Assembly: GCF_900109175.1 (NCBI RefSeq) | Contig: NZ_FNZE01000001.1 | Location: forward strand, 248,001 to 312,000 | Length of the DNA: 64,000 nt | From: Pseudomonas linyingensis | GTDB taxonomy: Bacteria; Pseudomonadota; Gammaproteobacteria; Pseudomonadales; Pseudomonadaceae | Direction of reading: 5' to 3' | Part shown: positions 13,311 to 58,702 of the stretch, in pieces | Layout of the letters: each line of letters begins with the position of its first letter | Numbering within the stretch: position 1 is the stretch's first letter | Notes under the pieces: model-generated | What the model was told of the DNA's origin: nothing | Seen by the model: only the letters and a program-made list of their open reading frames with translations | Database searches by the model: none | Made by a program: the position numbers and the translations under genes

Positions 13311-13406
13311 GGAAGGCAATCGCGCCCGGTGGCGCGGCCGGGCTTCAAACCCGGTTGGGGACGGCAGCCGTTCCCGGGTGAGTTCGACTCTCACTGCCTT
13401 CCGCCA
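13311..13406 (+). tRNA. selC: tRNA-Sec (anticodon UCA)
   Basis: The 96-base sequence folds as a selenocysteine tRNA. The 8-bp acceptor stem is GGAAGGCA / TGCCTTCC, with discriminator G and an encoded CCA at 13404-13406. The anticodon loop CTTCAAA has UCA at 13345-13347 between GCCGGG and CCCGGT. A long variable arm (GGGACGGCAGCCGTTCCC) and a T arm with GTTCGACTC follow. It lies 41 bases after selB on the same strand. It decodes the UGA at 4728. Confidence 0.96.
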
Positions 13407-22695: not shown

Positions 22696-22713
22696 TTGGC
22701 ACGCTATATGCTT
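22696..22713 (+). promoter_or_regulatory. Sigma-54 promoter of pilA
   Basis: TTGGCACGCTATATGCTT carries the GG at 22698 and GC at 22710, exactly 12 bases apart as in TGGCAC-N5-TTGC-type -24/-12 promoters. pilA begins 50 bases downstream. In Pseudomonas pilA is known to need RpoN with PilR; rpoN is at 56306-57802 of this window, while pilS and pilR are not here. GTGTC motifs at about 22650, of the kind PilR is reported to bind, lie upstream. Confidence 0.8.
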
Positions 22714-22763: not shown

Positions 22764-23207
22764 ATGAAAGCGCAAATGCAGAAAGGCTTTACTCTCATCG
22801 AACTGATGATCGTGGTTGCGATCATCGGTATTCTGGCCGCCATCGCCATTCCCCAGTACCAGAACTATGTTTCCCGTACCCAGGTGACTCGCTTGGTTGG
22901 TGAGATGTCTTCGCTGAAGACTGCGGTTGAAGAGCGCATGAGCCGCAATGCTGCGACCAACACCATTGCTGATCTTGGCTACACGGCCTCCAACCTGAGC
23001 TCCAACGCGGCAGTTGCTATGGATGCTTCTGCTGGTACTGCCTCCATTACCGCCACTTTGAACGGCAACGTGGCTTCGGCGGTCAACGGGGGAGTCGTGA
23101 CCGTTTCTCGTGGTGCTGATGGCATCTGGAGCTGTGAAGTGACTGCGTCCAGCAACACTGGCTGGGATGACTCCTTTGCTCCGGCTGGTTGCCCGGTAGG
23201 TAGCTGA
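22764..23207 (+). CDS. pilA: Type IV major pilin PilA
   Basis: A 147-residue prepilin. The leader MKAQMQKG ends at Gly8, so mature pilin begins [20 protein letters not shown] with Glu5 in place. The hydrophobic helix is followed by a globular domain whose Cys124 and Cys143 should form the carboxy-terminal disulfide loop (18 residues between them). The protein ends CPVGS: the terminal residue is serine, as in P. aeruginosa 1244-type pilins whose last serine is glycosylated by PilO/TfpO. It is driven by the sigma-54 promoter above and followed by two hairpins. Downstream genes encode possible modifying enzymes. Confidence 0.96.
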
Positions 23208-23212
23208 TGAGT

Positions 23213-23238
23213 AGTAGGCAAACCGAGGTTTGCCTACT
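23213..23238 (+). terminator. pilA terminator hairpin
   Basis: AGTAGGCAAACC at 23213-23224 and GGTTTGCCTACT at 23227-23238 are perfect inverted arms starting 6 bases after the pilA stop, followed by GTTTGT. This is a plausible Rho-independent terminator, although the T tract is short. Confidence 0.65.
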
Positions 23239-23244
23239 GTTTGT

Positions 23245-23290
23245 CTGAAAAGCACAACGCCCCGCGACTGCGGGGCGTTGTGCTTTTCAG
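23245..23290. terminator. Long perfect hairpin, probable bidirectional terminator
   Basis: Arms of 21 bases at 23245-23265 and 23270-23290 are perfectly complementary with the loop GACT. The outer end is CTGAAAAGCAC and the inner part is GCCCCGC. With A-rich sequence on the left arm and CTTTTC on the right arm it can end transcription in both directions. It should insulate the very strong pilA transcript from the genes that follow. Confidence 0.7.
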
Positions 23291-23369
23291 TGAAAGTATC
23301 GGGGGAATGCGATCGGCTCGAACCTCGAATTGTACCGTCGCGAGAACAGTCACGAGTGGTGGTGAGGGT

Positions 23370-24773
23370 ATGGGGACGTATTTTCGGTTGACGGAAGCTG
23401 GGAAGCTGCGTCTGCGGAGTTTTTCGTGGGCTCTTTTGTTGATCGTCATCGTGCCAAATCTGCTTTTTGTCGTGATGGCATGGCTGGCTGGGGTGGGGCG
23501 GTCGTACCTGAACTTGGACTATGCGGTTGCGGTATTTGTTGTGGCCTTGGGATTCAGGTGGAGCGGGGCTTTGCTGTTTTTGTTTCTTTTGTTGGTTGAT
23601 CTTTTGGTTGTGGTTGGTCAGTTGTTTCCGTTTGTTCGTTTTTCTGATCTTTTGTATTTGGCTAAATTCACCTTCATTTCGTCTGCTCAGTACCAGGTGG
23701 CAATTTCTGTTATTGCTGTTGGGGTGCTGGCAAAGTGTTGGGTGCTGCTTTTCTTTGGGCGGCGGATCAGTCCAGTGGGGGGGGTTATTGCTTTCAATCT
23801 GCTGGTTTTTTTGTATATGTTCAAGGTGTATGGAGTTGGAGGGGGTGGGGAGGATAAGTTTTGGCGAGTTTCCAATGTTTCCTTGGTTTCCAGTCAGGTG
23901 GTTGATTTTGTCAGATATCGAAGTAGTGGGTTTCTCAAGAGTGCGGAGCTGAAAGGGGAGCCATTTACAGTATTGCGTGCTGATGCGGGTGCAGTCCCTC
24001 AGTGGATCGGTAATTTAGATGGCAAGGCGCTCCCCGAAAAACTGCTGCTGGTCGTCAACGAGTCATGGGGAGTTCCGCGTGACCCGAAGGTTCAGGAGGC
24101 GCTGTTGCAGCCGCTACGTGCTGTGTCGCGTGGCGAAGTTGAGCAAGGCAATTTGTCTTTTGTCGGGGCTACCGTGGCGGGAGAGTTGAGGGAGTTATGT
24201 CAGTTGAGGCCTAATAATTTCAACCTTGCAGCGGTGACGGATGGCTTTGGAGAATGTCTGCCAAATCGTTTGAGGCGGAAAGGTTATCGCACGGCATCAG
24301 TTCATGGTGCTGTCAGCTTGATGTACGATCGCAGGCATTGGTATCCCCGAGTTGGCTTCGATGAATCAGTTTTCTTTGAAAGCAGCAGGTGGCCGGAGCG
24401 CTGCTATTCCTTTCCGGGGGCGTGTGATCTCGATCTGCGAGCGACTGTGGGAGATTTTCTGCGGCTGGATGGTAAGCGTTTTCTGTATTGGCTTACTTTG
24501 AACTCTCATGCATTTTATGATCAGAGAGATATTCGAGAGGATGTCTTTGATTGCAGGCTTTTTGATGTTGACTCTGGTTCTCGCGAATGTCTGAACTTAA
24601 AGTTGCAGGCGCAGTTCTTTCATGGGTTGGGTGAGCTGCTTGGCTCGGGAATCCTGCGCGGTACGGCGGTGTTGGTCGTGGGGGATCACGAACCGCCGCT
24701 CACCAAGACGCGAGGGGAAAAAGCCGTCTTTGCCGAAGGCATGGTGCCGTGGGTGAGTTTCGTTGTGGAGTAG
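23370..24773 (+). CDS. Membrane sulfatase/LtaS-like phospho-transferase, possible pilin or glycan modifier
   Basis: A 467-residue protein with about five amino-terminal membrane helices (to about residue 155) and an extracytoplasmic alkaline-phosphatase-superfamily domain. Putative metal and catalytic residues are Glu231 in LLLVVNESWG, Thr268 in FVGATVAGEL as nucleophile, and Asp439-His440 in VVGDHEPP. This layout is shared by lipoteichoic-acid synthases and phosphoethanolamine or phosphoglycerol transferases. The ATG at 23370 with GAGG upstream is preferred; the frame continues back to a TTG at 23241 but would translate the 21-bp hairpin. It lies between pilA and an O-antigen-ligase-like gene in less GC-rich DNA with many T runs. 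Donor and acceptor are unknown; modification of pilin or its glycan is inference. Confidence 0.7.
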   Translation: MGTYFRLTEAGKLRLRSFSWALLLIVIVPNLLFVVMAWLAGVGRSYLNLDYAVAVFVVALGFRWSGALLFLFLLLVDLLVVVGQLFPFVRFSDLLYLAKFTFISSAQYQVAISVIAVGVLAKCWVLLFFGRRISPVGGVIAFNLLVFLYMFKVYGVGGGGEDKFWRVSNVSLVSSQVVDFVRYRSSGFLKSAELKGEPFTVLRADAGAVPQWIGNLDGKALPEKLLLVVNESWGVPRDPKVQEALLQPLRAVSRGEVEQGNLSFVGATVAGELRELCQLRPNNFNLAAVTDGFGECLPNRLRRKGYRTASVHGAVSLMYDRRHWYPRVGFDESVFFESSRWPERCYSFPGACDLDLRATVGDFLRLDGKRFLYWLTLNSHAFYDQRDIREDVFDCRLFDVDSGSRECLNLKLQAQFFHGLGELLGSGILRGTAVLVVGDHEPPLTKTRGEKAVFAEGMVPWVSFVVE

Positions 24774-24838
24774 ATGCTGGGGGCTGGTGAGAAACTGCCG
24801 TTTGTGACAGGTAATCAGAAGGATGGAGTGGGGGTTGA

Positions 24839-26446
24839 ATGACTGAGCGAGAAATGGATTGCGTGCGCGTGCGGTACGAAATAGTGCCGGCTTTCCTTAT
24901 GGCCGTGACTCTTGGTTTTTCCGTGGGGCTGCTCGCTGATTTCTGGTGGCTGGGGAACTTGCAGGCGGCCATTTTCGTGTTGGCCATGGTTTGTTTTTCT
25001 AGATCAAAGGGGGGCATGCTTGGAAATTGCTTGCTGCTTGCTGGGGCTTTTGGGGGGGCGGTTTTTGTGGCTTTCCTTGGTTTGGTGAGAGGTGAGTTTC
25101 TCATCTGGCCAGCACTTTTTGTCGTTATTGCAAACCTGCTGCTGGTTGCTTTTCTATTGCGAGAGAGGACTTTGGGGGGGCTCGAATTCGCTCGGTGGAG
25201 GTCGTACTTTCCAAGAGTTTTTGTGATGTTCATGGCGTGCGGAGTTTTTTATGTAAACTTCATGCCGAACTGGATGGCCGGGCAGAGTGTCGCGCTACTG
25301 GAGGCTTTCTTTATTTTCGCTGTTTTAGCCATCGCCCGCACTGAGAAGCAGGAAGGAATGAGTTGGTTTTTCACCGGAGCGCTGTCCGCGCTGGCTTTGA
25401 CCTTTGTGCTGGCCAATGCACTGGCAGCCATCGAAGGGGTTGCCATGGCATCTTGGTCGAGAGTGTTTCATATGGTGTTGCACTTGGTTTTTGCGGTTGT
25501 CTTCCTGCGCTTCTTGCTGAGTGATGCCCCTGTGTCGAGTCTGGTCGCCAAGGCTGTCCTGTTGGCTGTACCTGTCTATGCGATGTTCCTGATAACTGCC
25601 TGGGTGGGAATGGAGGTACCCGAGCAGCACGACTGGATGAATAAGCCACCGTTGTTCCGCCACATTCGTCATCTGGCCTATTTCCTCTGTATCGGCATGG
25701 TGACGGCGGCTTGGGCCAGTCTGGCGTGGCAGGGCGGATGGCGAGGAGCTGCGATGCTGACCTTCTGCCTAGTGACGAGCATTATGCTATGGAGTGGCAG
25801 TCGGGGCGCTTTTCTGGCGGCCAGCATTGGTATCCTTACCCTGTCGATCGGGTTTCCGCTGCGACGCTGTGCGCGCGTTTGGTTGGTGTTGCTGTTCGCC
25901 GTCTGGGCGGCCATGCTGGTATCTGCTTTGTTCCCGGTTGATCAGTCGGGTGTCGGTTGGCTGTCTGCATTCATGCGCTCCGATCAGGCCAGCTCGATCA
26001 ATCAGCTTAGTTCGGGGCGACTGGGGATCTGGACTTATCTCGTACCCTTCATTGCCGAGCGACCATGGTTTGGATGGGGTGCTGAGGGCTTTTTATCTGT
26101 GTGGGAAGGCTTCCCGATCCGCCAAGCGCATAACGGCGTGATGCAGTTGCTGATCGAGTGGGGGGCGGCGGGGGCGGCGCTGTTCCTGTTGATCATCGGC
26201 TGGCTGTCGTTCAAGGGCGGAAAGCTTTATATGGTCACCGCAAAGGCTGGCAAAACCACGGTGACGCTCGCTTATGGGGTTTCGCTGTTGACTGCGCTGC
26301 TCACCCTTGCGCTTACCGATGGGATTTTTTATTTCGGCATGCCGATGACCTATCTGATGATCGCTTGTGCTTTCATCGGTGGAGAATTGATTCGTCATAA
26401 GCGGGTCGACCTGGGTTCGAAGGCGATATCCGATCCAGCGGGCTGA
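24839..26446 (+). CDS. O-antigen ligase-like (Wzy_C) membrane protein, candidate pilin glycosyltransferase
   Basis: A 535-residue polytopic protein of about twelve helices. Wzy_C/WaaL-type features lie in the second half: LWSGSRGAFLAASIG near 318, LSSGRLGIWTYL near 390, then FGWGAEGF and QAHNGVMQLLIEWG at 408-440, with the conserved His after a large periplasmic loop. Such proteins move a lipid-linked glycan onto lipid A (WaaL) or onto pilin (PilO/TfpO, PglL). Position two genes after a pilin ending in serine favours the TfpO-like role, but a true ligase or polymerase is possible. It starts 65 bases after the sulfatase-like gene, with GGAGTGGGGG before the ATG. Base composition differs from neighbouring genes. 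Confidence 0.75.
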   Translation: MTEREMDCVRVRYEIVPAFLMAVTLGFSVGLLADFWWLGNLQAAIFVLAMVCFSRSKGGMLGNCLLLAGAFGGAVFVAFLGLVRGEFLIWPALFVVIANLLLVAFLLRERTLGGLEFARWRSYFPRVFVMFMACGVFYVNFMPNWMAGQSVALLEAFFIFAVLAIARTEKQEGMSWFFTGALSALALTFVLANALAAIEGVAMASWSRVFHMVLHLVFAVVFLRFLLSDAPVSSLVAKAVLLAVPVYAMFLITAWVGMEVPEQHDWMNKPPLFRHIRHLAYFLCIGMVTAAWASLAWQGGWRGAAMLTFCLVTSIMLWSGSRGAFLAASIGILTLSIGFPLRRCARVWLVLLFAVWAAMLVSALFPVDQSGVGWLSAFMRSDQASSINQLSSGRLGIWTYLVPFIAERPWFGWGAEGFLSVWEGFPIRQAHNGVMQLLIEWGAAGAALFLLIIGWLSFKGGKLYMVTAKAGKTTVTLAYGVSLLTALLTLALTDGIFYFGMPMTYLMIACAFIGGELIRHKRVDLGSKAISDPAG

Positions 26447-26453
26447 AAGGAAT

Positions 26454-26482
26454 GCCAGAGCAGCCTTCCAGTTTGCTCTGGC
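26454..26482 (+). other. Hairpin after the ligase-like gene
   Basis: GCCAGAGCA at 26454-26462 and TGCTCTGGC at 26474-26482 form a 9-bp stem 7 bases after the stop codon. There is no T tract, so termination is uncertain. Confidence 0.4.
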
Positions 26483-26591
26483 GCAGTTGGCTGCAGTCTG
26501 GTTGAGGAACTGCCTTTCCGAGTGCAGTAGGCTTGCCATGCTACTCGCTCCATGACCAGATACGCCTTTTAGTTTACCGGAGTTACCCCTC

Positions 26592-27080
26592 ATGAAATCC
26601 CATTGGGCCGAACGCCTGCGCCATGCCATGCACAGCCAGGCCGATGCCCTCGGCAACCTGCTGGTCGAAGGCTTTCATTACCTCGCCCTGTTCGCCATCG
26701 GCGGGGCGGTGGCTTGGGCGGCGGGGCACACCTTCCTCGGCATGTTCGAGCGCGGGCAGGCGACCATCGACGATATCCTGCTGCTGTTCATCTATCTCGA
26801 GCTGGGTGCGATGGTCGGCATCTACTTCAAGACCAACCATATGCCGGTGCGCTTCCTGATCTATGTGGCGATCACCGCGCTGACCCGGTTGCTGATCGGC
26901 GATATCCAGCACAACCACAAGCCGAACATGGGCATCGTCATGGTCTGCGGGGCGATCCTGTTGCTGGCGATAGCCACCCTGGTGGTGCGCTATGCCTCGA
27001 CCAAGTTCCCCTCGCCGCCAGCGAATGTGCCGGGACGGAGCAAGGTGGGAGATTCGGCGAGTCTGGGCGATCAGCCCTGA
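26592..27080 (+). CDS. PsiE-family membrane protein
   Basis: A 162-residue protein with four membrane helices. The family motif region FIYLELGAMVGIYFKTNHMP lies near 74-93, followed by VRFLIYVAITALTRLLIGDI, as in phosphate-starvation-inducible PsiE. The carboxy tail (PANVPGRSKVGDSAS) is hydrophilic. The function is unknown even in E. coli. I see no clear Pho box in the 145 bases upstream. It converges on a small membrane-protein gene 19 bases away. Confidence 0.85.
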   Translation: MKSHWAERLRHAMHSQADALGNLLVEGFHYLALFAIGGAVAWAAGHTFLGMFERGQATIDDILLLFIYLELGAMVGIYFKTNHMPVRFLIYVAITALTRLLIGDIQHNHKPNMGIVMVCGAILLLAIATLVVRYASTKFPSPPANVPGRSKVGDSASLGDQP

Positions 27081-30036: not shown

Positions 30037-30055
30037 CGGCCCGGCTGATCTGCTT

Positions 30056-30134
30056 GTTGGAGGCCCGACCTCGGGGCGAAGCTCTTTGCCCTTCGGCGGG
30101 CCCGCGGTCCGCATCGCCGCGAGGTCGCGCCTCC
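30056..30134. repeat. Inverted pair of family A REP-like elements
   Basis: GGAGGCCCGACCTCGGGGCG on the left and, inverted, CGCCGCGAGGTCGCGCCTCC on the right flank a short spacer containing GCGGGCCCGCGG. Together they can form one long hairpin. It lies between the convergent phoH and SIMPL genes, where it may end both transcripts. Confidence 0.7.
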
Positions 30135-30882: not shown

Positions 30883-30991
30883 TGGGGACTCCTGTCGGGC
30901 TGGACGTTGCCGGGCAAGGATAGCCGGCAATCGAGGATAGGACTGGGCGTGGGAACACGGGTTCCATGGCGAGCAGGGGCGCTTGCTCTTT

Positions 30992-31074
30992 TGGGAGGCC
31001 CGGCCTCGGGGCGGCGCTTTGGATCGGCCGGCGGCCCTGCGGCCCGCATTCGCCGCGAGTCGCGCCTCCTACAG
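30992..31074. repeat. Inverted pair of family A REP-like elements
   Basis: GGAGGCCCGGCCTCGGGGCG and the inverted CGCCGCGAGTCGCGCCTCC flank GGCCGGCGGCCCTGCGGCC. The layout is the same as at 30056-30134. Confidence 0.65.
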
Positions 31075-31095
31075 GTATGGGGTTGGGCTTGCTCT

Positions 31096-31152
31096 TGTGG
31101 GAGGCCCGACCTCGGGGCGAAGCTTTTTGGATCGGTAGGCGGACCGGAAGCT
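31096..31152. repeat. Single family A REP-like element, second half degenerate
   Basis: GGAGGCCCGACCTCGGGGCG is followed by AGCTTTTTGGATCGG and a short GGCGGACCGG. It lacks the inverted partner found in the adjacent copy, so it appears truncated. Confidence 0.55.
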
Positions 31153-31228
31153 GCTAGCGCCGCGCGTATTTGCCGCAGCCGGCGGGCCGGTGCTGTGGTT
31201 ATACTCGCCCCAGTTTCCGGAATCCCTC

Positions 31229-57980: not shown

Positions 57981-58702
<722 letters not shown>

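Follow-up and report, generated by a model that had tools for sequence, protein, structure and literature searches.

A serine-terminated pilin, an LtaS/GacH-like enzyme and a WaaL-like ligase share an exchangeable cassette in Pseudomonas linyingensis

We interrogated the pilin locus in a 64,000-nucleotide stretch of the Pseudomonas linyingensis genome (assembly GCF_900109175.1, contig NZ_FNZE01000001.1, positions 248,001 to 312,000; hereafter the window). Here pilA, encoding a type IVa major pilin that ends in serine, is followed by a gene for a membrane enzyme of the sulfatase/alkaline phosphatase superfamily (SULF) and then by a gene for a Wzy_C/WaaL-like membrane ligase (LIG). The pilA-SULF-LIG segment is best read as an exchangeable pilin-modification cassette, and a terminal serine accompanies SULF in every pilA-linked SULF locus that we found. 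Judging from sequence comparisons, there is about an even chance that SULF puts phosphoglycerol on the terminal serine of the pilin and that LIG adds a lipid-linked glycan to the same molecule; SULF acting on the serine, with the LIG glycan at another place on the pilin, is the most economical account. A first-pass annotation of the window had reported a pilin ending CPVGS with its terminal serine, a 535-residue Wzy_C-type protein two genes downstream and a single enzyme gene between the two, and the translations and Pfam matches agree with it on each count (Table 1). The sole cysteines of PilA are Cys124 and Cys143, the latter followed by PVGS in the C-terminus GCPVGS.

At E<=1e-5, SULF has 14 matches in 12 of 398 sampled genomes of the family. 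Eight of them, in eight genomes, adjoin a pilin gene, and six, in four genomes of group g12, do not within the fetched regions. Three further pilin-linked SULFs come from named records (a Chromatiaceae metagenome-assembled genome, Nitrincola tapanii and Thauera sp. 28), and one more lies in genome G960 (locus L170), a member of the Thauera genome's family, where 2 of 199 genomes match, the other being the Thauera genome itself. The SULF profile matches only the window itself among 369 genomes at class level, and only the Nitrincola genome among the 116 of that genome's family. In a tree, the 12 SULFs encoded beside pilA group together (100/100) to the exclusion of the six unlinked homologues, and all 12 neighbouring pilins (window, L019-L028 and L170) end in serine preceded by Gly, Ser or Thr, the six unlinked matches standing outside this count. 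The serine pattern had already been recognised when L170 turned up, and there a pilin of the ECR-ending type is extended to ECRAATS. The SULFs of L019 and L021 are sisters (100/99), yet they lie beside pilins of different types.

Terminal serine is rare among control pilins of the same family: it occurs in 2 of 53 (G129 and G012) beside which no SULF, LIG or TfpO-like gene was seen, with accessory genes read for part of the 53, and the terminal serine of the window's pilin is therefore beyond chance. These controls derive from family genomes with a pilB match (143 of 148 searched), of which 77 were taken (30 loci, each with 1.5 kb of flank only, and 60 fetched regions, overlapping). A pilin beside pilB was recovered by pattern from 59 genomes and not from 18; leaving aside G000, G010 and G071 gave 56 controls, and leaving aside three TfpO-like loci, whose pilins end in Ser, Ser and Thr, gave 53. 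The Fisher test yields p=1.5e-08 for serine endings in 8/8 SULF-linked against 2/53 control pilins, and p=1.1e-07 when the TfpO-like loci are kept as controls (4/56, two TfpO-like and two others), values weakened by the relatedness of the pilins. Close contrasts are provided by G183, which has SULF and a pilin ending CTGS, against its nearest row G115, without SULF and ending CTN, and by the SULF genome G283 (CSVSS) against its nearest non-SULF row G001 (CAFTN). A pilin tree built without the tails requires 8 changes for SULF and 12 for terminal serine.

The first-pass annotation had read the locus as one of pilin glycosylation in which the terminal serine marks the acceptor of the ligase. The latter part is not borne out. 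A ligase gene directly follows SULF in five of the 12 pilA-linked loci (window, L021, L025, L027 and L170), whereas the pilins of the other seven, including L019, whose contig ends soon past the next gene, end in serine with no directly following ligase, and only two of six pilins beside LIG without SULF do so. Across five independent LIG/Ser pairs, the two features change the same way in 1.3, opposite ways in 0.1 and show no difference in 3.6. The one Wzy_C match of G283 (E<=0.001) is homologous to the separate WaaL candidate of the window's genome, described below, and adjoins a weak Kdo-kinase match (Kdo, 3-deoxy-D-manno-oct-2-ulosonic acid) and a family 2 glycosyltransferase gene. SULF therefore seems able to do without a pilin ligase of the Wzy_C fold, which leaves room for WaaL itself and for other glycosyltransferase types. 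This distribution suggests that it is SULF, and not LIG, with which the terminal serine goes, and the gene lying in between is the telling one.

SULF resembles the LtaS, LtaP and GacH enzymes. We chose the ATG at 23370 as its start (467 amino acids, aa); a longer frame with a TTG start opens at 23241, within the hairpin downstream of pilA. The protein has four hydrophobic N-terminal segments, and a profile of 11 SULFs reaches, among solved structures, LtaP (4.7e-06), GacH (0.002) and LtaS (0.0043); no EptA/MCR chain appears at E<=10, an absence that does not rule out kinship. Residues E231, T268, D439 and H440 are invariant in 11/11 rows and also in L170, and align with the LtaP, GacH and LtaS positions; we take them to have metal-binding and nucleophile roles. 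The structure prediction is weak overall (predicted local distance difference test, pLDDT, 53.5), and we interpreted the C-terminal domain alone: residues 217-467 align to LtaS with Z 12.8 and a root-mean-square deviation of 4.0 over 222 residues. A search of the open-access literature with few terms, most subscription papers lying outside it, found no pilin-linked sulfatase-type, phosphoglycerol-transferase or LtaS/GacH-like accessory gene, and a paper on pilin cassettes (PMC11841053) does not contain the word 'sulfatase'.

The six unlinked SULF homologues (L029-L034) lie in the four g12 genomes, and four of them adjoin a glutamate-synthase-like gene, as tested with Pfam in L029 and read by eye in L030-L032.

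The glycosylation part of the earlier proposal fared better. PF04932 is the sole Pfam match of LIG at E<=1, and PglL_A and Wzy_C_2, both detected by the same library in L148, are lacking; pilin ligases of the TfpO/PilO class are described as WaaL-like/Wzy_C proteins without PglL_A or Wzy_C_2 (PMC12645811). No NCBIfam model matches LIG at E<=1, including the TfpM model NF058641, which is present in the library. At E<=1e-5, LIG has eight matches in 396 sampled family genomes. Seven of them (window and L044-L049) adjoin a pilin gene, and the eighth is weak (7.4e-06) and lies in an apparent polysaccharide gene region. We placed LIG in a Wzy_C tree of 30 rows with several long branches, for which seven of the 27 loci L142-L168 yielded no row by the filter and five rows, being duplicates or fragments, were excluded; supports are from the Shimodaira-Hasegawa-like approximate likelihood ratio test only. 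LIG falls in a clade of eight rows (99) separate from the TfpO-like clade. The LIG clade groups with a second ligase type, SLIGB, found beside SULF in L025 and L027 (86); the two then join the TfpO-like ligases (91), and a WaaL clade stands apart (99). The TfpO-like reference rows L096, L113 and L118 were labelled by context, and the TfpO comparisons draw on these and on papers; L096 matches NF058641 weakly (2.9e-09; 36.5 bits, where the cut-off is 600), and L113 and L118 have no match. By gene neighbourhood and phylogeny, LIG is thus a pilin-locus ligase, TfpO-like in setting and outside the TfpO-like clade. Its profile also matches structure 7tpg (1.5e-06), which we take to be a WaaL, and its own structure prediction is weak (pLDDT 46).

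In all six of L044-L049, the LIG loci without SULF, a membrane enzyme of ~630 aa, X, lies between pilA and the LIG relative. X, too, is a sulfatase-superfamily protein (PF00884 at 3.1e-28 and 7e-25 in the two tested) and has a conserved R-T-F-P-x-W with its Thr. We rejected X as a copy of SULF; it belongs to a different branch of the superfamily, its profile scoring best against sulfatases and nucleotide pyrophosphatases/phosphodiesterases. These loci represent a second pilin cassette that pairs a sulfatase-superfamily enzyme with a ligase.

The slot that holds pilA, SULF and LIG is exchanged between species. Using blastn, we found the 5' end of pilA and a PsiE-family gene at 26592 (Pfam 1.8e-24) conserved in most of seven same-genus genomes, flanking a variable segment that sister species have replaced or almost entirely lack. 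In G004, 91.6% identity sets in again at window position 26591, and the interval encodes a pilin of that genome, with an ECR end, and a 241-aa protein weakly matching the TfpX/TfpZ accessory proteins (116.5 bits, where the cut-off is 200). In G001, the PsiE-family stretch starts ~130 nt past pilA. SULF and LIG have no match at E<=1e-5 in the seven other genus members, and G+C is 51% in SULF, 55% in LIG and 67% in the window.

How might the cassette work? The double hairpin after pilA would probably limit readthrough into SULF and LIG. SULF would most likely be a Thr-nucleophile phosphotransferase of the LtaS/GacH type, taking glycerol phosphate from phosphatidylglycerol and placing it on the pilin, with the C-terminal serine of the [GST]S tail as the most probable site. 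LIG would be a pilin-dedicated WaaL-like ligase adding a lipid-linked glycan, probably of O-antigen type, elsewhere on the same pilin. The order of the genes, their families, the conserved residues, the serine-SULF link and the exchange of the slot are observed, whereas we infer the periplasmic placement, the donor, the acceptor atom and the activities of SULF and LIG. Both the donor and the acceptor have precedents: GacH splits phosphatidylglycerol and transfers glycerol phosphate to N-acetylglucosamine (GlcNAc) (PMC12282279), and Neisseria PptB places phosphoglycerol on Ser93 of PilE, with fewer pilus-pilus contacts (PMC8445170), so pilin serines are known phosphoglycerol acceptors.

Several observations weigh against this scheme. 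By its fold, SULF could as well handle phosphoethanolamine as glycerol phosphate: against the SULF model, EptC, MCR-1, EptA and a sulfatase, like LtaP and GacH, lie within 1 Z of LtaS. Well-supported independent SULF/Ser pairs number three (same direction in 2.9 on average, opposite in 0), with which a sign test cannot reach 0.05. In the g12 genomes, whose unlinked SULF homologues are 28-35% identical, 22 loci were inspected, three gave no pilin-like protein, and 2 of the 19 read end in serine (CQS and GCS); because most do not, the serine rule is limited to the pilA-linked SULF clade. The SULF-only genome G013 has a PglL-type gene elsewhere, and most SULF-only genomes have one to three Wzy_C matches. 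Finally, all three loci with both SULF and window-type LIG (window, L021 and L170) have Ser-terminal pilins.

This last observation favours a reading in which LIG glycosylates the terminal serine as PilO/TfpO does and SULF decorates the glycan, as GacH does the GlcNAc side chain. The sister position of the LIG clade to the TfpO-like ligases and the known TfpO acceptor, a C-terminal serine (PMC12645811, PMC11626772), point the same way. However, the seven SULF loci that combine Ser-terminal pilins with no directly following ligase speak against it, as do the four of six LIG loci without SULF whose pilins have no terminal serine and the independent LIG/Ser pairs, which mostly show no difference. 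We regard it as rather unlikely; for the window strain itself, a PilO-like action of LIG on the serine is possible.

Transfer of phosphoethanolamine in place of phosphoglycerol to the pilin, as by Neisseria PptA, is less probable still. The superfamily and fold are shared with the phosphoethanolamine enzymes, as the small Z differences show, but the SULF profile reaches LtaP, GacH and LtaS and not the EptA/MCR chains. We think it very improbable that SULF is a formylglycine sulfatase or an unrelated hydrolase, with the serine link arising from hitch-hiking of the pilin type. The Pfam name and a C-L-P-N-R stretch at residues 296-300 of the window SULF recall the sulfatase signature C/S-x-P-x-R; yet C296 and P298 are invariant among the SULF rows while the Arg is kept in 3/11, the invariant T268 stands at the nucleophile place and aligns with the Thr region of LtaP and GacH, and serine follows SULF across different pilin types. 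Least credible is the view that LIG is the regular WaaL, the ligase for O-antigen, or else a Wzy polymerase, and lies beside pilA by accident, for although the Wzy_C domain is common to WaaL, Wzy and pilin ligases (PMC12645811), LIG relatives repeatedly adjoin pilA, and the genome has another Wzy_C gene as a candidate for WaaL. This WaaL candidate, at C42 (Wzy_C 9.1e-15; a weak NCBIfam RfaL match, 9.2e-06), adjoins genes for a Kdo/WaaP-type kinase (PF06293 5e-08), an ABC transporter that is by context MsbA, and a Kdo transferase (PF04413 7.7e-73), and because of this setting LIG is probably not the ordinary WaaL. The third Wzy_C gene of the genome lies at C18.

We compared the cassette with known systems. 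Known pilin cassettes include those with TfpO, TfpW and TfpX/Y/Z (PMC11841053). The P. aeruginosa group I pilA-tfpO cassettes share with the window pilA, post-pilin hairpins, a ligase-type accessory gene, an exchangeable slot and a Ser-terminal pilin, but the window has an extra LtaS/GacH-like enzyme between pilA and the ligase, its LIG is sister to the TfpO-like rows rather than among them, and the serine tracks SULF. TfpO and TfpM act on a C-terminal Ser/Thr (PMC12645811); LIG resembles TfpM of the Moraxellaceae in being WaaL-like without PglL_A/Wzy_C_2 and differs from it in the NCBIfam result, the weak NF058641 match belonging to the TfpO-like L096. The likeness of SULF to Neisseria PptB/PptA, presumed transfer of a phospho-group to a pilin serine, is drawn from published descriptions of these enzymes; in contrast, SULF is encoded beside pilA, has a ligase gene after it in 5/12 loci and is coupled to a C-terminal serine. 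With GacH, LtaP and LtaS, SULF shares the profile match, the Glu/Thr/Asp/His set and a hydrophobic N-terminus, with a similar catalytic-domain fold in a weak model that EptC and MCR-1 fit nearly as well, but it sits in a pilin locus of Gram-negative bacteria, and its acceptor is presumed to be a protein or a pilin glycan.

Upstream of pilA, and divergent from it, lie pilB, pilC and pilD (T2SSE, T2SSF and Peptidase_A24 Pfam matches). The GG-N10-GC site 5' of pilA may function as a promoter; the pattern has two more matches nearby (22669 and 22691), a simple promoter scan found no promoter, and pilA is under PilSR control (PMC11841053). The double hairpin has a minimum free energy of -63.4 kcal/mol (z -10.4), with 0/200 shuffles as low. 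We based the hairpin claim on this folding energy instead of on a terminator scan, whose 8 hits are about as many as in shuffles (mean 7.3). A post-pilin terminator, proposed to attenuate accessory-gene expression, is common in pilin-accessory cassettes (PMC11841053, introduction).

Table 1 Features of the pilA-SULF-LIG locus, in window coordinates.
Feature	Position	Strand	Details
pilA, type IVa major pilin	22764-23207	+	147 aa; Pfam Pilin 3.1e-19, N_methyl 6.6e-10
pilA terminal Ser147 codon	23202-23204	+	
SULF, sulfatase/alkaline phosphatase superfamily membrane enzyme	23370-24773	+	LtaS/LtaP/GacH-like; Pfam Sulfatase PF00884 7.3e-08
SULF predicted Glu/Thr/Asp/His set	E231 24060-24062; T268 24171-24173; D439-H440 24684-24689	+	
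LIG, Wzy_C/WaaL-like membrane ligase	24839-26446	+	535 aa; Wzy_C PF04932 6.7e-15; pilin-locus clade
Candidate sigma-54-like promoter, 5' of pilA	22696-22711	+	GG-N10-GC pattern at 22698
Two back-to-back hairpins directly 3' of pilA, candidate attenuating terminator	23206-23245 and 23246-23289	+	
Variable (exchangeable) segment, ends approximate	22858-26590	+	blastn against 7 same-genus loci

Other pilin loci came to light in the same survey. In G013 (L148:45-3056), downstream of a second pilin gene lie genes for a 561-aa PglL-type ligase (PglL_A, Wzy_C and Wzy_C_2) and for a TfpX/TfpZ-family accessory protein, the latter scoring 323 bits where the cut-off is 200. The control pilin gene of G129 adjoins genes for a beta-lactamase-family hydrolase and an acyltransferase. 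At L139:1639-3638, pilA is followed by genes for a beta-lactamase-family hydrolase (PF00144 2.7e-28) and an acyltransferase-3, the pilin ending CKVGS, and at L138:2416-3615 by such a hydrolase gene (PF00144 3.2e-25), the pilin ending ETETDA; the L138/L139 arrangement is possibly another pilin-modifying cassette. Elsewhere in the window are a selenocysteine tRNA (tca; 13311-13406), three copies of a 62-nt GC-rich repeat resembling repetitive extragenic palindromic elements (30053-30114, 30988-31049 and 31094-31155; the second and third 74% and 65% like the first), and a possible dispersed repeat at 58575-58651, where 33-77 nt match the pilA regions of three sister genomes (G001, G005 and G007).

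We tentatively put forward, at somewhat below an even chance, that the pilA-linked SULF clade is a new family of pilin-specific glycerol-phosphate transferases that recognise a C-terminal [GST]S tail, the acceptor moving with SULF between unrelated pilin types. If true, the terminal serine would be a common handle for different pilin coats, glycan by TfpO and phosphoglycerol by SULF, and cassettes like that of the window would make doubly coated pili. With a phosphotransferase of the pilin locus tied to the last residue, the pilin coat would gain a second chemistry, and the link between terminal serine and SULF would give a simple sequence rule for predicting it; phosphoglycerol might also be attached to proteins through a short tag at the C-terminus.

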